Shown here one piece after another: positions 2,717-10,462 of a stretch of DNA of 64,000 bases. The position numbers were made by a program, and so were the translations under genes. Below the pieces are notes generated by a model. That model ran no database searches, was not told the DNA's origin, and saw only the letters and a program-made list of their open reading frames with translations. Each line of letters starts with the position of its first letter. Position 1 is the first letter of the stretch. Source of the stretch: Alphaproteobacteria bacterium (GTDB lineage Bacteria > Pseudomonadota > Alphaproteobacteria > Micropepsales > Micropepsaceae); NCBI GenBank assembly GCA_947467345.1, contig CANIHD010000001.1, positions 124,001 to 188,000 on the forward strand, given 5' to 3'.

Positions 2717-3592
2717 CTACGCCAGATATTTCTTGAACCACGCCACCGTGCGGCCCCACGCCAACTCCGCTGCGTTGGCATGGTGGCGCTCGGTATTGGT
2801 GTTGTTGTTGAAGCCGTGCTGCGCACCGGGATAGACGTGGAATTCGTGAACCTTGCCGAGCTTCTTCAGCTCCTGCGCATAGAGTGCCGCTTCGCCGGTA
2901 TTGTTCATATCCAGCATCACGTCGGCATAGTTCATCAGAATCGGCGCATTCAGTTTCGGCGCCAGACTCGGATGCGGCGGCTGGCCATAGAACACCACGG
3001 CTGCATTCAGCGTTGGTTCGCTGATCGAAACATTTTGCGACACGCGCCCGCCCCAGCAGAATCCGACCACACCTACTTTCCCGTTCACATCGGCGCGGCC
3101 GCGCAAATATTTTACCGCTTCCACACCGTTGCCGGTCACTTGCGTCAGATCGAGAGCATTGATCGGATTGGGCGTGTTGGGTTGACGGCGTGCCATCACC
3201 TCGGCGGTGCCGCCCATGGGCGAGAGAAAGTCGACCGCAATGGCGACGAAGCCTTCCGAGGCCAGACGACGCGCCACGTCTTGTGTGTGCGCGTTGAGGC
3301 CCCCCGCTTCATGCACCACAACAACTGCGCCGTAACGTCCGGGTGCGCGCGGCCGCGCGACATAGCCCTTCACCTCGCCGGTGACGCCGCGAAAAGTGAC
3401 GTTCTCGGTGGCAATGCGCGGATCATTCTCGGCCACGGTTTGCGCCAGTGCGAAATCGCAATCGAGGACGGGAAGAAGCGCGGTTGCCGCCGCTATGCTG
3501 CCGACAATGCGCGCCGCCTGTTCGATGAATTTACGCCGGTCGCAATGGTGATGGACGTAGTCGTGGTGCAGATCGATTAGCTTCTGGTCCAT
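2717..3592 (-). CDS. Tat-exported dienelactone hydrolase family protein, copy 1
   Basis: A 291-residue protein. The start at 3592 matches the paralogue at 3906-4784, both beginning MDQKLIDLHHDY, and a GGAGGG ribosome site sits just upstream. Residues 19-24 carry a twin-arginine motif (DRRKFI) before a hydrophobic stretch, which suggests Tat export. The dienelactone hydrolase triad is visible: Cys in GFCWGG, Asp in the NYADVMLD segment and His in AQHGFNN. The family opens dienelactones or other lactones and esters. It lies in tandem with copy 2 across a repeat-rich spacer, so a local duplication is likely. The substrate is unknown. Confidence 0.9.
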   Translation of the reverse strand: MDQKLIDLHHDYVHHHCDRRKFIEQAARIVGSIAAATALLPVLDCDFALAQTVAENDPRIATENVTFRGVTGEVKGYVARPRAPGRYGAVVVVHEAGGLNAHTQDVARRLASEGFVAIAVDFLSPMGGTAEVMARRQPNTPNPINALDLTQVTGNGVEAVKYLRGRADVNGKVGVVGFCWGGRVSQNVSISEPTLNAAVVFYGQPPHPSLAPKLNAPILMNYADVMLDMNNTGEAALYAQELKKLGKVHEFHVYPGAQHGFNNNTNTERHHANAAELAWGRTVAWFKKYLA

Positions 3593-3905
3593 GAAACCCT
3601 CCCGGCGCGCATCGGCGCACGCGTCAACTCGGGCGCCACGTTCAACCAAATGCAGCGGCGAACGAAATCACACGCCTGTGAGCGGCGGGTTTCCCCCGTC
3701 ATCCTTCGAGACGCGCGGCTAGCGCGCGCTCCTCAGGATGAGGTGACATATAGAATACCCATGGTGAGGAGGCAGCGTCGTTCGAGACGCCCAACCAACT
3801 CATCCTGAGGGTAACCGTGGACCAATGGTCCGCGGTTACGTCTCGAAGGAGAGGTGGTTGGGCTCCTCACGATGAGGGCGTCCGTCTCGAACCATGAGGT
3901 CGCGC
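3593..3905. repeat. Spacer with palindromic REP-like repeats
   Basis: No gene is seen here. A palindromic unit at 3700-3743 has arms ATCCTTCGAGACGCGCG and CGCGCGCTCCTCAGGAT. A second, nested inverted repeat spans 3789-3863. Its outer arms are GCCCAACCA (3789-3797) and TGGTTGGGC (3855-3863), and its inner hairpin is at 3811-3839 (13 bp with one G-T pair). A further partial unit reaches about 3898. Similar CCTCATCCTGAGGAGCG-type palindromes are dispersed in many Hyphomicrobiales genomes. The element separates the two hydrolase paralogues. Confidence 0.75.
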
Positions 3906-4784
3906 CTAAGCCAGATATTTCTTGAACCAGGCGATGGTCCGGCTCCACGCCAATTTCGCCGCGTTTTCATTGTAGCGCGGCGTATTGGTCTCGTTGTTGA
4001 AACCGTGTTGGGCGCCGGCATAGGCGTAGAACTCGTGCACCTTGTTCAGCTTCTTCAGCTCCTGAACATAAAGCACCGCCTCGCCGGTATTGTTCATATC
4101 CAGCATGACATCTGCGTAGTTCATCAAAATGGGAGCATTCAGCTTGGGCGCCAGACTCGGGCTGGGCGGCTGCCCGTAGAAAACGACTACTGCGTTGAGA
4201 CTGGGATCGGTCACTGAAATGCTCTGCGCCACGCGGCCACCCCAGCAGAAGCCGACCACGCCGACCTTGCCGCTACAATCCGCGCGCGTCCGCAAATATT
4301 TCACCGCTTCCACGCCGTTGCCGACGGTTTCGACCGGGTTGAGCTTGTTGGCCAATTGGGCCACGCCACCGCCGCCGCCGCCCGCACCGGGCGGAGGCGT
4401 TCCCCCTGCGGGCGACAGAAAATCGACGCCCATGCCGATGAAGCCTTCGGCGGCGAGACGGCGCGCTAGGTCTTGCGTGTGCGGATTTAGGCCGCCGATT
4501 TCATGCACGATGACGACTGCGCCGTAGCGGCCCGGCGCACGCGGCTTCGCTATATAGGCTTTCACATCGCCGGTGATGCCCTTGAACGTCACCATCTCAG
4601 TAGTGATCCGAGGATCGCTCTCAGGCACGATTTCCGCCAGCGCGTAATTGTTATCGAGCACCGGGAGCAGCGCTGCGGCGGCGGCCGTCGTTCCGACAAT
4701 GCGCGAGGCCTGCTCCAGGAATTTACGCCGGTCGAAATGGTGATGGACGTAATCGTGGTGAAGGTCGATCAGCTTCTGATCCAT
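3906..4784 (-). CDS. Tat-exported dienelactone hydrolase family protein, copy 2
   Basis: A 292-residue protein that closely resembles copy 1 throughout. It begins MDQKLIDLHHDY, has the twin-arginine segment FDRRKFLEQ followed by a hydrophobic stretch, and keeps the nucleophile motif GFCWGG and the histidine motif AQHGFNN. It differs in a low-complexity proline/glycine stretch at about residues 145-160 (GGTPPPGAGGGGGG). That stretch replaces a normal loop and comes from a GC-rich microsatellite-like DNA tract near 4365-4395. The predicted role is lactone or ester hydrolysis outside the cytoplasm; the substrate is unknown. Confidence 0.9.
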   Translation of the reverse strand: MDQKLIDLHHDYVHHHFDRRKFLEQASRIVGTTAAAAALLPVLDNNYALAEIVPESDPRITTEMVTFKGITGDVKAYIAKPRAPGRYGAVVIVHEIGGLNPHTQDLARRLAAEGFIGMGVDFLSPAGGTPPPGAGGGGGGVAQLANKLNPVETVGNGVEAVKYLRTRADCSGKVGVVGFCWGGRVAQSISVTDPSLNAVVVFYGQPPSPSLAPKLNAPILMNYADVMLDMNNTGEAVLYVQELKKLNKVHEFYAYAGAQHGFNNETNTPRYNENAAKLAWSRTIAWFKKYLA

Positions 4785-4917
4785 AGCGGCGCTCCCGTGC
4801 TGTTTCTTACTAGCGTTATAGCAGGCCGGGCCAATACCTTAGAAGCGAAGCCTTGTGTCAGCCTTGTCATAGTTTAGCCTGCAGCCGTTCCTCAGGCTCC
4901 AATTGGTGGCACGTTCC

Positions 4918-5598
4918 ATGATCCTGCTTTATGACCTCGCGGCAGCTGATGGCCGCCGCTTCAGTCCCAATTGCTGGCGCACGCGCATGGCGCTGGCGCA
5001 TAAGGGCCTCTCTTACGAAACGCGCGCGACGCGATTCACCGACATCGCTGCCATTGACGGCGGAAAGCAAAAAACCGTTCCCGTCATCCACGACGGCGAG
5101 CATGTCATCGGCGATTCGCATGCCATCGCCGACTATTTGGAGAGGATGTATCCCGAGCGCCCATCGCTTTTCGGCGGTGCATCGGGTCAGGCCTTGACCG
5201 AGTTCATGCGCAATTGGGCGATCTCCACGCTGCATGTCGGATTGTTCGACATGATCGTTCTGGACATTCACGACGCGCTCGATTCGGCGGACCAAGTCTA
5301 TTTCCGCGAGAGCCGTGAAAAGCGGCTGGGCAAAAGCCTGGAAGCAGCACAGGCCGGACGCGAAGCGCGCCTTCCCGCTTTCCGCAAGAGCCTTGCGCCT
5401 TTGCGCGGCATGTTGGCGGAGCAGCCTTGGATTGGCGGCGCCGCGCCGCTCTATGCCGATTATCTCGTTTCCGGCCCGTTGCAATGGGCGCGTGTGATCA
5501 GCGATTTTCAGGTGCTGGCCGATGACGATCCGGTGGCGCACTGGTTCGAGCACTGCCTGGATTTGCACGACGGGCTGGGTCGGAAAATTTACGGCTAA
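4918..5598 (+). CDS. Glutathione S-transferase, LigE (beta-etherase)-like
   Basis: A 226-residue protein. The N-terminal thioredoxin-fold domain has ILLYDLAAADGRRFSPNCWRT, then TVPVIHDG (cis-Pro) and GDSHAIADYLE (the glutathione-contacting Asp-Ser), followed by an all-helical domain. The segment with FSPNCWRTRMALAHKG resembles LigE-type beta-etherases, which cleave lignin beta-aryl ethers, more than generic GSTs. A true etherase role is only a hypothesis. The ATG at 4918 is preferred over an in-frame TTG at 4903. The gene converges with the methyltransferase gene, with a 4 bp overlap at 5595-5598. Confidence 0.85.
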   Translation: MILLYDLAAADGRRFSPNCWRTRMALAHKGLSYETRATRFTDIAAIDGGKQKTVPVIHDGEHVIGDSHAIADYLERMYPERPSLFGGASGQALTEFMRNWAISTLHVGLFDMIVLDIHDALDSADQVYFRESREKRLGKSLEAAQAGREARLPAFRKSLAPLRGMLAEQPWIGGAAPLYADYLVSGPLQWARVISDFQVLADDDPVAHWFEHCLDLHDGLGRKIYG

Positions 5599-6098
5599 AG
5601 CTTCCGGCGCGGGGCCAGCGCCCGCTCTTCTTCGCGGATGCGCCAGAAGAGAATGCCGGCGTTGAGCAGCGAGAAAATCAGCGCCACCCAGATCTCGCCG
5701 AACGCCAAAGGCAGCATCGCGATTTCGCCGGCAACCACCACGTAGTTGGGGTGCCTCATCCAGCGATAGGGCCCGCGCTTCACCAGCTTCGCATTGGGCA
5801 GCGTGATAATGCGCGTGGTCCAGAACCGGCCCAGCGACGCGATCACCCAAATCCGCAAGGCTTGCAGGATGAAAAACAGAATAAGCGGAATTGGATAAAT
5901 GACCGTCGCTGCCGGCAGAGCCAATGCGATGGCAACAAGCCAGGCGGCGTGCAACAGAACGATCAAAGGATAGTGCCCGCTTCCCATTTCGACCGCGCCT
6001 TGGACGAGCAGCAGGCGCGTGTTGCGCATGGCATAGATCATTTCGCCAAGGCGCTGGGCCGCCACCACGGCAATGATGGCCAGTGCGAGATGATTCAT
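5595..6098 (-). CDS. ICMT-family membrane methyltransferase, PKS partner
   Basis: A 167-residue membrane protein with about four hydrophobic segments. It has the isoprenylcysteine carboxyl methyltransferase-like C-terminal signature, including GPYRWMRHPNYV and a closing RIREEERAL. This family uses SAM at the membrane. The start codon overlaps the stop of the type III polyketide synthase by 4 bp (ATGA, 6095-6098), so the two genes are translationally coupled. By analogy with known synthase-methyltransferase pairs such as BpsA/BpsB and the srs genes, it probably methylates the phenolic or pyrone lipid product. That function is inferred from family and context. Confidence 0.85.
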   Translation of the reverse strand: MNHLALAIIAVVAAQRLGEMIYAMRNTRLLLVQGAVEMGSGHYPLIVLLHAAWLVAIALALPAATVIYPIPLILFFILQALRIWVIASLGRFWTTRIITLPNAKLVKRGPYRWMRHPNYVVVAGEIAMLPLAFGEIWVALIFSLLNAGILFWRIREEERALAPRRKL

Positions 6099-7135
6099 GG
6101 TTCGATCATGAGAAAGGCCGCCGAGAATCCTGGGCCCAACGTGGTCATTAAACCGCGGCGGTGCTGTTCGCGAATGCGCATGCGCTGCAGCACGAAGAGC
6201 GCCGTCACCGCCGACATATTTCCATAGTCACGCAAAACACTGCGGCTGTCGGCAAGCCCGCCCGGCTTCATACCGAATGTCATTTCCAGCGCGTCCAAAA
6301 CCTTGGCGCCGCCGGGATGACAGGCAAAGCCCTCAATGTCGCTCAGCCGCAAATCATTCTTGCGCAAGAATTCCGAAAGAACGGGACCGAATTTCGTTTC
6401 GACCAGACTAGGAATGCTTTGTGAGAAAATCGGCTTCAGCCCGTCTTCGGCGACATCCCATCCCATGACATCGAGCGATTGCGGCCAGGTGTGCTCGCCT
6501 TGTACGCCAAGCTTCGGGCCATCGCCGGCCGTGGATATCACTGCGCCGGCGGCACCGTCGCCGAACAAAGCGGCGGCCACGATGTTCGATTTGGACAGAT
6601 CGTTCTTGCGGAATGTGAGCGCGCATAATTCCACGCAAAGAAACAACACGCGTGAATTCGGCGTAGCGCGCGCCATTGCGCCGGCGCGCGCAAGCCCCAT
6701 CACGCCGCCGGCACAGCCCAGGCCAAATATGGGAAGTCGTTCTATGTCGCGCCGAAGACCGAGCCGTTCGACGATGAGCGCATCGAGGCTGGGCGTTGCA
6801 ACGCCGGTGGTGGAGACCGTAACGATGGCGTCGATGTCTTCGGGTTCGAGTCCCGCCTCTGCAATGGCGGCGCGCGCAACCTTCTCAAGCAGATGAACCG
6901 CGTGTTCGATGTAGAGCGCGTTGCGGTCGGTCCAGCCGTGCGGTTCGAGATGCCACTCGATGGGCACGCAGGAATATCGCCGCGCGATGCCGGTGTTGGC
7001 GAATACCGGCATCAGCCGTTCAATATCACCGCGCCCGCCGAACAGAATGCGCGCGCCAGCAGCGACACTTTCCTGATCGAGAACGTGCGGCGGAACCGCC
7101 GTTTGCAGCGCGAGCAAGCGGGCCATCGGCAACAT
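6095..7135 (-). CDS. Type III polyketide synthase (chalcone/alkylresorcinol synthase-like)
   Basis: A 346-residue protein with the thiolase fold. The catalytic Cys-His-Asn triad is visible: Cys in GLGCAGG (about residue 140), His in FACHPGGAK (about 288) and Asn in DYGNMSA (about 321). Bacterial homologues extend an acyl starter with malonyl-CoA to make alkylresorcinols, alkylpyrones or naringenin-type products. Which of these is made cannot be told here. The start at 7135 is chosen because a GAGG ribosome site lies 8 bp upstream; the longer frame to 7171 has no better site. It forms a two-gene operon with the membrane methyltransferase downstream. Confidence 0.92.
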   Translation of the reverse strand: MLPMARLLALQTAVPPHVLDQESVAAGARILFGGRGDIERLMPVFANTGIARRYSCVPIEWHLEPHGWTDRNALYIEHAVHLLEKVARAAIAEAGLEPEDIDAIVTVSTTGVATPSLDALIVERLGLRRDIERLPIFGLGCAGGVMGLARAGAMARATPNSRVLFLCVELCALTFRKNDLSKSNIVAAALFGDGAAGAVISTAGDGPKLGVQGEHTWPQSLDVMGWDVAEDGLKPIFSQSIPSLVETKFGPVLSEFLRKNDLRLSDIEGFACHPGGAKVLDALEMTFGMKPGGLADSRSVLRDYGNMSAVTALFVLQRMRIREQHRRGLMTTLGPGFSAAFLMIEP

Positions 7136-7207: not shown

Positions 7208-7516
7208 TCAGTAATTCGCGGCGAGATAGGTTGCTATAATGGCAGCGTCCGCTTCAGATACGGGCGCGCCGTAGATATGGATCATCTTGGTGACGGAGGC
7301 CTGCCAGAAGGCGGCGCCCCGTCCTGGCGGCTGCGTGGTGATGTAGTCGACCGAGTGGCACAGACCGCATTGCGCCGACGCAACATCCGACCCTGGGCCC
7401 GCTTTCAATTCCGCGGTCTCACGCGGCAGGCGGTAAGGAACGGGCTCCGCGGCAACAACGACCGACGAAGCCGCGAGACAAAATGCGAGAAGCGGAACAT
7501 TTGCTTTCATGATCAT
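7208..7516 (-). CDS. Sulfite dehydrogenase cytochrome c subunit (SorB-like)
   Basis: A 102-residue exported protein with a signal peptide (residues 1-22, ending VVAA) and one haem c site, CGLCH, at about residue 50. It has little else besides a helical C-terminus with a possible axial Met near KMIHIYG. The start overlaps the stop of the molybdenum subunit by 4 bp (7513-7516), indicating coupled translation. Pairing with a sulfite oxidase-family subunit identifies it as the likely electron acceptor of a SorAB-type sulfite dehydrogenase, passing electrons to cytochrome c. Functional identity rests on this pairing. Confidence 0.85.
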   Translation of the reverse strand: MIMKANVPLLAFCLAASSVVVAAEPVPYRLPRETAELKAGPGSDVASAQCGLCHSVDYITTQPPGRGAAFWQASVTKMIHIYGAPVSEADAAIIATYLAANY

Positions 7517-8718
7517 GCCGCCGTGACACGCAGTGTTTCGATGACGTTGCGCATATAACCGGCGCCGTTCCAGAGCGGCATTTCAGGTTGCGTTTCGCCG
7601 CCGCGTCCTGTGGCGCGCACTTTCAATTCATGCGTACCGGCAGGTAGGCGCACATTTGCCTGCCAATGACGGAAAGCATAGCGGCCCATATCTTCACCGA
7701 GCCGCGTCTCGCTCCAACTGCGCCCGCCATCTGATGACAGCGAAACATTTGCAATGCCATGTCCTGAATCGAACGCGAAGCCGCGCACCGTTACATCGCG
7801 ATCTGCAACAACGCGGTCGCCCTCTTTCACATTGCTGATGAAGGAGCGGATGGTGAAACGGTTGATCGGAATAGTAGCGAGCGGCGCTGTTCCCGGCGCC
7901 ACGCAGGCGCACTCATTGTCAGGAATGCGATAGGCCGTCTTCATCCAATACCCATCGAAGACAGAATCGATGACGCGGATCTCATGTACGTGCTTCGTCC
8001 AATAGGTGCCGTAATAGCCCGGCACCACCAGGCGCAGCGGAAACCCGTTGAGCACCGGTAGATCTTCGCCGTTCATGGCGTAAGCCAGCATCACCTCGCC
8101 GTCATTGGCGTGGTCGATGTCGAGCGCCTTCACGAAATCGGGCACCGTATCGATAACCGGCGTGTCGAGCCCGTTGAATGTCACTTGCTTGGCGCCGGCA
8201 CGAATGCCGGCACGCGCCAGAAGCGTGGACAGCGCGACGCCGCGCCAGCGCGCGTTGCCCATGGCACCATGGCCGAGCTGCCCGCCGCCGACGCGCGGCT
8301 CGACAAAGCCGCGGCTATTGCCGGAGCACTGATTGACCGCGACCATCTCAATGGCAGGCAGGCGTCTGATCTCCGCCAGCGAAAGCCGGAGCGGCGTGTC
8401 GACGCTGCCGGTCAGTTCGAGGGCAAAATTTTCGGGATCGATGGCGAGCGGCACATTCGCCAGATGATAGCGAACGAAGAAAGCGTCGTTCGGCGTCAGA
8501 ACGCTTTCATCGAACACCGAGAAAGGCGTCTCCAATTGCGGTGGGCGCGACGTGAGCTGGATGAGCGGCCGCTTTTGCGGGTATGTCACCAGACGCCGTT
8601 CGCCACCGGCGAACGGCAGAGTCAGCTCCGCCTGAGCCAACTGGGCCAAAACCGGCCGGGCTCCGAGGAGCAGTGCGGCGCCGACCGCGCCCTTCAACAC
8701 AAATCGCCGGCTAGGCAT
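7513..8718 (-). CDS. Sulfite oxidase-family molybdopterin subunit (SorA-like)
   Basis: A 401-residue protein. The ATG at 8718 begins MPSRRFVLKG, a Tat signal with the twin-arginine motif SRRFVLKG and cleavage near VLAQ. The sulfite oxidase fold follows: a molybdopterin domain whose cysteine ligand is in AVNQCSGNSRG, then a C-terminal dimerisation domain (residues about 285-395). It probably oxidises sulfite in the periplasm, releasing electrons to the downstream SorB-like cytochrome. Sulfite could come from sulfonate or thiol degradation. A longer frame from a TTG at 8745 would spoil the signal peptide and is not used. Confidence 0.9.
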   Translation of the reverse strand: MPSRRFVLKGAVGAALLLGARPVLAQLAQAELTLPFAGGERRLVTYPQKRPLIQLTSRPPQLETPFSVFDESVLTPNDAFFVRYHLANVPLAIDPENFALELTGSVDTPLRLSLAEIRRLPAIEMVAVNQCSGNSRGFVEPRVGGGQLGHGAMGNARWRGVALSTLLARAGIRAGAKQVTFNGLDTPVIDTVPDFVKALDIDHANDGEVMLAYAMNGEDLPVLNGFPLRLVVPGYYGTYWTKHVHEIRVIDSVFDGYWMKTAYRIPDNECACVAPGTAPLATIPINRFTIRSFISNVKEGDRVVADRDVTVRGFAFDSGHGIANVSLSSDGGRSWSETRLGEDMGRYAFRHWQANVRLPAGTHELKVRATGRGGETQPEMPLWNGAGYMRNVIETLRVTAA

Positions 8719-8896
8719 TGAATTCTCAATAAACAATTTGTGCAATTACGCCGCAAAAGTCTTTATCCCGCAAGGGGCAATGCGCTCAATCTCTACTAGT
8801 TTGGTTACAGTTATGCGTTCGATTGACCCCCAATGGGGGGCGCGTTAGCTAGGCGCGGCCCGCCCTATAAGAAGCGGCCCACGCGGAGGATATGCC

Positions 8897-10462
8897 TTGC
8901 CCTTTATCGAGACCAATGGTGTCAATTTTCACTACAAGCTCGAGGGCAGCTCGGGACCGACCGTGATTTTGCTGCACGAGATCGGCGGTTCGCTGGACAG
9001 CTGGGACGAGATCGTTCCCGGCCTTGCCGCAAGCGCCCGCGTGTTCCGCTACGACCAGCGCGGCTTCGGCCTCACCGAAAAAGTGCGCCAGGGCTATAGC
9101 CAGAGCGATCTGGTGGACGATCTCGACGCGCTGATCCGCGAGCTGAAACTGGCGCCGCCCTTCCACATCGTCTCGCTTGCCGCGTCGTCGATGCAGGCAC
9201 TCACCTTTAATGACCGGCACCCGAGCGACGTCGGCTCACTGATTTTCTGCAACCCCGCCCCTGGCGTGCCGCCTGAGCGCGCCGCCGCGCTGGAGAGCGT
9301 TGCAGCCCAAGCCGAGCAAGGCGGCATTCGCGCCATCATGGGTGGGATGCTGGATAAATCCTATCCGCCGAGCCTCTCCGACCGTCACACCTACGATGCC
9401 TATCGCGGGCGCTATTACGCCAATGACCCGGTAGGCTTCGCACACGCTTTCCGCATGATGGCGCGCACCAACATGATGGCCTCGCTGGGCAACATCAAAG
9501 CACCGACGCTCGTGATTGCCGGACGGCAGGATTTCATCCGCGCGGTCTCCGTCACCGAAGGCATTGCCGCAAAGATTGCGGGCGCGCGGTTTGAGACCAT
9601 CGATGGCGGCCATTTCCTTCCCACCACATCGCCGCACGCGCTTCTGTCGCTGCTGCTCGATTTTCTCCCCGGCGGTGCCGGCACACGCGCCAAAATCAAC
9701 GACATCACCATCAATTACCGCGTTGAGGGCAAAGAGGGCGCGCCCTGGGTAGTGTTCTCCAACTCGCTCGCAACTGACCTTTCCATGTGGGACGATCAGG
9801 TGGCGGCGCTGAAAGACCGCTATCGAATCTTACGTTACGACCATCGGGGCCATGGCGGCACGGATGCACCGGCAGGCGCGTATAATTTCTCCACGCTCGT
9901 CTCAGATGTCGTCGGCCTCTTCGATCATCTCGGCATCGAGCGCGCGCATTTTGTCGGCCTTTCGATGGGCGGCATGACGGCATTGGGTCTCGCGCAACAG
10001 CATCCGAACCGCGTCGGAAAAATCATTGTCGCCGATTGCGGCGGTGCCTCGACGCCGGCCGGCGCAGCGCAATGGCAAGAGCGCATGCAGGTAGCGACCG
10101 AAAAGGGCATGGAAGCTCTGGTCGAACCGACTTTAGGCCGCTGGTTTCCGGCGGAATTCATCGCCAAGAACCCGCCCGTGCTCGACAAGGTTCGCGCCAT
10201 GATTCGCCGCACGCCGGTGAACGGCTTCAATGGCTGCGCCGCCGCGCTCTCGGATTTCGATTTCCGCGCCGGGCTCGCTGGCATGAAAATGCCGACGCTT
10301 TTCCTCTGCGGCACCAAAGACGCAGCCTTCGGCGGCTTGAAAGCGCTTCACGCAGGTGTTGCGGGTTCAAAACTGGCGGAATTGGACGGCGCCGGGCATA
10401 TTTCCAACCTGGAACAGCCGGCGAATTTCACCCAATCCATCGCCACTTTCCTGGATTCCTAG
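8897..10462 (+). CDS. Double alpha/beta hydrolase, enol-lactonase-like
   Basis: A 521-residue protein containing two alpha/beta hydrolase domains joined at about residue 260. The second domain is complete: nucleophile Ser in VGLSMGG, Asp in CGTKDAAF and His in GAGHISN, with strong resemblance to 3-oxoadipate enol-lactonase (PcaD). In the first domain the equivalent motif reads VSLAASSM, so the nucleophile serine is replaced by alanine, although Asp (GRQDFIR) and His (DGGHFLP) remain. A TTG start at 8897 is used, with GGAGG at 8885-8889. The only nearby ATG (8892) is out of frame. The substrate is unknown; context suggests aromatic catabolism. Confidence 0.88.
   Translation: MPFIETNGVNFHYKLEGSSGPTVILLHEIGGSLDSWDEIVPGLAASARVFRYDQRGFGLTEKVRQGYSQSDLVDDLDALIRELKLAPPFHIVSLAASSMQALTFNDRHPSDVGSLIFCNPAPGVPPERAAALESVAAQAEQGGIRAIMGGMLDKSYPPSLSDRHTYDAYRGRYYANDPVGFAHAFRMMARTNMMASLGNIKAPTLVIAGRQDFIRAVSVTEGIAAKIAGARFETIDGGHFLPTTSPHALLSLLLDFLPGGAGTRAKINDITINYRVEGKEGAPWVVFSNSLATDLSMWDDQVAALKDRYRILRYDHRGHGGTDAPAGAYNFSTLVSDVVGLFDHLGIERAHFVGLSMGGMTALGLAQQHPNRVGKIIVADCGGASTPAGAAQWQERMQVATEKGMEALVEPTLGRWFPAEFIAKNPPVLDKVRAMIRRTPVNGFNGCAAALSDFDFRAGLAGMKMPTLFLCGTKDAAFGGLKALHAGVAGSKLAELDGAGHISNLEQPANFTQSIATFLDS

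Follow-up and report, generated by a model that had tools for sequence, protein, structure and literature searches.

A BpsA-BpsB-type synthase-methyltransferase gene pair in an alphaproteobacterium is a common cassette of its class and a probable lipid pathway

The window analysed here, a stretch of 64,000 nucleotides from an alphaproteobacterium of the family Micropepsaceae, contains a type III polyketide synthase gene that overlaps the gene of a predicted membrane methyltransferase of the ICMT superfamily. Judged by sequence, the pair is of the BpsA-BpsB type. The pairing is old and almost obligatory in the class. We read it as a two-gene lipid pathway of this type, with a probability of about 0.72, and its products would most likely be O-methylated alkylpyrones, possibly with some alkylresorcinol. 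The reading is based directly on the intact genes, the catalytic triad, the predicted folds, the conserved pairing and the clade membership of the synthase; we infer the acyl-CoA starter, the chain length, the preference for pyrone over resorcinol, the position of methylation and the role of the product as a membrane lipid or a signal.

Results

The gene pair

Both reading frames of the pair are complete and undisrupted in the window (Table 1), and the synthase opens with an ATG preceded by GAGG about 8 nt upstream. An earlier note, made from the letters of this DNA, had described a complete synthase tied to an ICMT-family gene by a 4 bp overlap at positions 5595-7135; the coordinates proved exact, and the ATGA junction between two intact frames bears out the description. 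The overlap would allow translational coupling of synthase and methyltransferase.

Table 1. Positions of the gene pair and adjoining genes in the window
Feature	Position	Strand	Details
Glutathione S-transferase-like gene	4903..5598	+	converges on the pair, 3' ends overlap by 4 bp
Predicted ICMT-superfamily integral-membrane O-methyltransferase	5595..6098	-	167 aa, BpsB type
Start/stop overlap ATGA, 4 bp	6095..6098	-	read from the synthase/ICMT junction
Type III polyketide synthase	6095..7135	-	346 aa, BpsA type; Cys141, His273, Asn306
sorB, c-type cytochrome subunit of sulfite dehydrogenase	7208..7516	-	NCBIfam SorB equivalog 114.7 bits, cut-off 93
sorA, molybdopterin sulfite dehydrogenase	7513..8745	-	NCBIfam SorA equivalog 663.7 bits, cut-off 600

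Family, fold and residues of the two enzymes

The synthase has both CHS-like domains (Pfam Chal_sti_synt_N, 4.5e-27; Chal_sti_synt_C, 2.2e-15), and all 72 synthases of the alignment, which takes in five PDB references and omits the fragment L059, keep the Cys-His-Asn triad. The AlphaFold2 model (pLDDT 95.3) displays the CHS/thiolase fold, with Pks11 of Mycobacterium tuberculosis as the top Foldseek match (4jap, E 5.7e-40, TM 0.94); Pks11 is also the closest solved relative by sequence (8.7e-55). The DpgA model (NCBIfam NF042429) gives 157.3 bits, under its cut-off of 425. A search of the window genome for the chalcone/stilbene synthase N-domain family gave one match only.

Cys171 aligns with the Pks18 tunnel residue C205, is a small residue kept in 60 of 64 family members, and is compatible with a long acyl tunnel; further Pks18 tunnel sites differ in the window synthase, such as Phe175 in place of A209. 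Trp226 is invariant among the 64 members, in a column that we equate with Trp281 of ArsB by way of Pks18 L266, which falls in the same column of an alignment that contains no ArsB sequence. The CHS numbering, as we assume it to run, is an additional basis for this equation. L266 itself is placed from a figure legend of PMC6274091, and a figure legend of PMC9927152 implies that the M. tuberculosis enzyme has the same Trp. Since the alignment puts this Trp also in Pks11 and in the BpsA-type synthase of locus L100, Trp226 does not decide the ring type, and we dropped it as a diagnostic switch between pyrone and resorcinol.

The methyltransferase matches the Pfam family ICMT (PF04140; 4.5e-30, 104.4 bits against a cut-off of 24) and also PEMT, and reaches 32.5 bits against a cut-off of 160 with the model of true isoprenylcysteine methyltransferases (isopcys_mtase, NCBIfam NF040696). 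Its structural model shows the long helices of an ICMT/PEMT-type membrane protein. The first three fold matches are all ICMT structures, headed by 4a2n (TM 0.69, probability 1.00, Foldseek E 7.4e-3), and the Foldseek search gave no match at E 0.001 or better. Residues R16, E19, G34, H50, R82, L89, H116-P117-N118-Y119, R153 and E157 are kept in at least 61 of 62 pair-linked ICMTs. Two ICMT-domain matches lie above cut-off in the window genome, that of the pair itself (2.4e-30) and a weak one (2.0e-5).

Conservation of the pairing

Removal of four near-duplicates from 72 loci (L032-L102 and the window) left a set of 68. The shorter loci L001-L031 include two from the window itself and 20 that were fetched again at greater length as L075-L094. 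The remaining nine stayed outside the long set: L017, a locus with the pair, and L024-L031, distant matches of type III polyketide synthase or FabH-like kind. An ICMT gene adjoins the synthase in 62 of the 68 de-duplicated loci, and a start codon at the -4 offset is on offer in 40 of these 62 pairs, the window counted; together the two counts place the pairing beyond chance. The six loci lacking an ICMT gene comprise L066 and L068, where the contig ends, the distant synthases L092-L094 (30-34% identity), which we take by impression to be ArsB-like, and L095 on plasmid p42d of Rhizobium etli.

In a survey of 289 genomes of the class, with the synthase called at E 1e-50 or better and the ICMT at E 1e-12 or better, all 56 genomes with a synthase also have an ICMT, none has the synthase alone and three have the ICMT alone (two at 46-47% identity, one at 31%). 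The co-occurrence has a Fisher p of 1e-56, uncorrected for phylogeny. The ICMT gene lies directly downstream on the same strand in 55 of the 56, with a largest gap of 609 bp; the exception is G181, whose synthase sits at a contig edge. Pairwise distances of synthases and ICMTs are correlated over 61 pairs (r 0.75, against 0.30 for the best of 2000 shuffles); a shared history of the species could by itself account for part of this. The earlier note's view of the two enzymes as a functional pair is thus supported by conserved adjacency, by the tree and by the two predicted folds.

Solitary members of both families also occur. Loci L108 (G116) and L109 (G234) each carry a BpsB-like ICMT at 46-47% identity, with no synthase match within the fetched 9 kb. 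L095 (R. etli CFN 42 p42d, 4986-6038) is a type III synthase of the window's clade; neither an ICMT gene nor a remnant was found within its fetched 11 kb, and its nearest rows in the tree, L102 and L117, have the ICMT.

Synthase phylogeny and known systems

The maximum-likelihood tree has 75 rows, the added BpsA-type and Srs-like rows included and L091 and CUS left out; in an earlier tree that held these two, long branches joined. BpsA is represented by the N-terminally truncated Bacillus velezensis copy and the Lysinibacillus-type L100 in place of B. subtilis BpsA; the actual sequences of SrsA, ArsB/ArsC, RpsA and RePKS are likewise absent, and several reference branches are long. In this tree the window synthase belongs to a 66-row clade (support 99/94) together with the B. 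velezensis and Lysinibacillus-type synthases, each of which is followed by an ICMT gene. Pks11, CylI, a Streptomyces SrsABC-like enzyme and a Nonomuraea enzyme make up the neighbouring group (86/75); THNS branches outside the two groups (99/92). Identity to the window synthase is 39% for L100, 37% for B. velezensis, 36% for the Streptomyces enzyme, 34% for Pks11 and 31% for THNS. A presence of the ICMT next door, as labelled in the tree, was verified for 65 of 67 rows, the contigs of L066 and L068 stopping at the synthase. A grouping with non-lipid synthases had been named beforehand as evidence against a lipid product; the tree places the synthase in the BpsA-type clade, with THNS outside.

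The BpsA-BpsB pair of the Bacillus subtilis group resembles the window pair in its two-gene order, in the ICMT-type partner of about 167 aa, in the clade of its synthase and, as seen in L100, in the Trp at the ArsB-281 site. It differs in sequence, at 37-39% identity for the BpsA-type rows of a comparison that does not include B. subtilis BpsA itself, and in the junction, which is a 1-bp gap in L096 and L100 but a 4-bp overlap in the window, whose host is Gram-negative. In the O-methyl alkylresorcinol pathway SrsA-SrsB-SrsC of Streptomyces griseus, represented here by L113, a type III synthase is likewise followed by an ICMT-family methyltransferase (PMC6669644), but in the tree the synthase of L113 sits with Pks11, in the group next to that of the window. 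No counterpart of the third Srs gene, an FAD-dependent oxidoreductase, was found adjoining the window pair, whose neighbours are sorB and the GST-like gene; the control L113 has one. Pks11, closest among solved structures in both sequence and fold, belongs to a different clade. ArsB/ArsC of Azotobacter vinelandii, unplaced in the tree, share with the window enzyme the type III, long-chain character and the Trp/Gly switch position as equated above, whereas no type I fatty acid synthase was found among the ten window proteins scanned with Pfam.

Locus L100 (CP031730.1) is recorded as a Stenotrophomonas rhizophila plasmid. Its region is of Bacillaceae type, with rpmG and a BpsA/BpsB-type pair; its synthase is more than 96% identical to a Lysinibacillus one, and CP065518.1 gives the same match values. 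The region is probably misassigned DNA.

Additional genes in the loci of relatives

Some relatives carry a longer cassette (L034:3203-5746, L036, L038, L076, L078-L081 and others, with L117 outside the 68). A gene for an AlkB-type alkane 1-monooxygenase is present in 8 of 68 loci (best PDB match 8f6t, 1.4e-54) and one for a DHA2/EmrB exporter in 21 of 68 (TIGR00711 above cut-off); the exporter gene adjoins the pair or is separated from it by the AlkB gene only. Within the window's 16-row clade, 13 members have the exporter and eight the hydroxylase, and neither is found in the window, in L075 of the same genus or in L032, whose contig stops 1.5 kb downstream. An AlkB query found no match in the window genome, G004 or G018, and matched in six of nine related genomes in the same search, the G029 copy being on a contig other than that of the pair. 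The DHA2-type matches of the window genome are distant, the best at 32%. These genes point to chain oxidation and export of the product in some relatives. No description of an AlkB/DHA2 extension of the pair was found in the open-licence literature, and the association appears to be new, as a genomic one.

Neighbouring genes

SorB and sorA lie upstream of the synthase on the same strand, 72 bp separating sorB from the synthase ATG. Of the 68 loci, the window is the only one to have them beside the pair; 53 of the 68 extend for at least 3 kb on each side. At the syntenic locus L075 of the same genus (G004), homologues of the window's hydrolases abut the synthase with no sorAB between them, and GST-like and DLH genes follow further downstream. 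SorA was detected at E 1e-60 in 3 of 13 genomes, the window's counted; the G018 copy is on a different contig from the pair. No terminator-like site was found between sorB and the synthase; the scan returned no more sites than shuffled sequences did, so this silence says little, and a sigma-70 scan gave nothing above shuffles. Because sorAB accompany the pair in a single locus and are missing from L075, they are probably bystanders; the 72 bp gap leaves room for co-transcription with the synthase, but a functional tie to the pair is unlikely. The redox genes near the pair, whose role had been left open, are thus identified as sorAB, and in none of the other loci seen are they linked with the pair. 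The GST-like gene scores 198 bits with a beta-etherase model, under its cut-off of 440, and turns up in 2 of the 68 loci within the length fetched.

Discussion

In the proposed pathway, the cytosolic synthase would load a fatty acyl-CoA on Cys141, extend the acyl chain by two (or three) malonyl units and close the ring; the main product would be a triketide alkyl-2-pyrone, perhaps with a share of tetraketide alkylresorcinol. The alkyl product would partition into the membrane and be methylated on a ring hydroxyl with SAM by the multi-helix ICMT-type enzyme, and coupling through the 4-bp overlap would keep the two enzymes in proportion. An alkylpyrone-type lipid is favoured by Pks11, an alkylpyrone synthase, being the best solved relative in both sequence and fold, and an alkyl chain also fits the AlkB alkane hydroxylase in the cassette of relatives. 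Several observations weigh against the pathway: the identities to the two BpsA-type rows (37-39%) against that to the Srs-like row (36%), the weak E-value of the ICMT fold match, and the R. etli relative L095 with its synthase and no ICMT. Trp226 would favour resorcinols over pyrones by the ArsB/ArsC rule, with the same Trp present in Pks11.

The main product might instead be an alkylresorcinol methyl ether, as in SrsAB, and oxidation by an enzyme encoded elsewhere might then give a quinone that serves as a redox lipid. Trp226 at the ArsB Trp281 site in 64 of 64 members and the ICMT-family membership of SrsB (PMC6669644) speak for this, but no FAD monooxygenase adjoins the window pair, in contrast to L113 from Streptomyces, in which a gene for an FAD-binding oxidoreductase comes straight after those of the synthase and the ICMT; the tree groups the window with BpsA-type enzymes, apart from the Pks11/Srs-like group; and BpsA-type L100 also has the Trp, yet bpsA is reported to give mainly pyrones. 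We regard a resorcinol as the main product as unlikely, though worth keeping in view. Less probable again is a short non-lipid pyrone from acetyl- or malonyl-CoA, methylated by the membrane enzyme and exported by DHA2 transporters in relatives. The excerpted text of PMC6274091 describes R. etli RePKS, which may or may not be L095, as making a heptaketide pyrone from acetyl- and malonyl-CoA and as accepting C4-C18 acyl-CoAs too, and DHA2/EmrB exporters occur in 21 of 68 loci; an alkyl chain is the better fit, however, to the AlkB-type hydroxylase in 8 of 68 loci and to the relationship with Pks11 and BpsA, and THNS is outside the clade.

Two further readings seem very improbable. An operon of sorAB and the pair, with a lipid made under or used in sulfite oxidation, would suit the common strand, the 72 bp gap and the terminator-like site not found between sorB and the synthase, but among 68 loci sorAB adjoin the pair in the window alone, the syntenic L075 lacks them, and sorA is present in 3 of 13 genomes, on a contig other than the pair's in G018. 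Slightly less credible still is a methyltransferase acting on a prenylated protein or a phospholipid, with its place beside the synthase incidental. The Pfam ICMT and PEMT matches and the three genomes with an ICMT and no synthase (two at 46% identity) agree with this; set against it are the adjacency of the genes in 55 of 56 genomes, the isopcys_mtase score of 32.5 bits, where the cut-off is 160, and the distance correlation.

The BpsA-BpsB-type reading could be widened for the class as a whole, where the two-gene core might belong to a larger export pathway, with AlkB oxidising the chain and DHA2 releasing the product as an extracellular signal or antagonist; the window genome would then keep the core and make a membrane-held form. 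We offer this as a tentative scheme, more doubtful than the core pathway, and equally tentative, as part of the same scheme, is a released product in the form of a methylated, chain-hydroxylated pyrone. The AlkB and DHA2 genes of relatives make it a testable extension of the pathway.

The link between an ICMT-family enzyme and a type III polyketide synthase product is already known. In the portions of PMC5686519 consulted, bpsA-bpsB of B. subtilis yields triketide pyrones with small amounts of alkylresorcinols and bpsB is the methyltransferase partner of bpsA; the ICMT-family membership of bpsB comes from our locus comparison and not from that source. SrsB is an ICMT-family enzyme tied to a type III synthase product (PMC6669644), and a similar cluster is described in PMC8779670. 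The statement of the earlier note that such pairs make O-methylated phenolic or pyrone lipids in other bacteria agrees with bpsA-bpsB (PMC5686519) and srsA-srsB (PMC6669644). Type III synthase clusters have been counted in Acetobacteraceae (PMC8776678) and Paracoccus (PMC8273931), the excerpts of which do not mention an ICMT partner; those of PMC3098273 and PMC12795557 hold nothing further on the pair. We found no paper describing the ICMT pairing in Alphaproteobacteria in the open-licence literature. A two-gene lipid pathway known from Bacillus thus has its counterpart in a cassette that is old and common in the class of the window, being present in 56 of the 289 genomes sampled. The window pair itself is an ordinary annotation for its lineage, with one correction: the redox genes next to it probably have no connection with it. 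The observation from which the analysis started was correct and its interpretation largely right.

An EcfG-like general-stress promoter upstream of the synthase was considered and dropped for the window, where the motif GGAAC-N15-19-GTT is absent. Ten of the 68 loci have the motif ahead of the synthase gene (L035, L044, L054, L063, L069-L071, L085, L090 and L097, three of the ten being close relatives), with about 0.03 expected per 460-bp stretch, or about 2 in 68, and may point to a possible general-stress link in some relatives.

A single 521-aa reading frame at 8897-10462 (+) joins in frame two PcaD-like alpha/beta hydrolases, which are two separate adjacent frames in L075 of the same genus. 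Positions 2717-3649 and 3906-4784 (-) encode tandem paralogues of the dienelactone hydrolase family, about 73% identical and under the cut-off of the YghX model.
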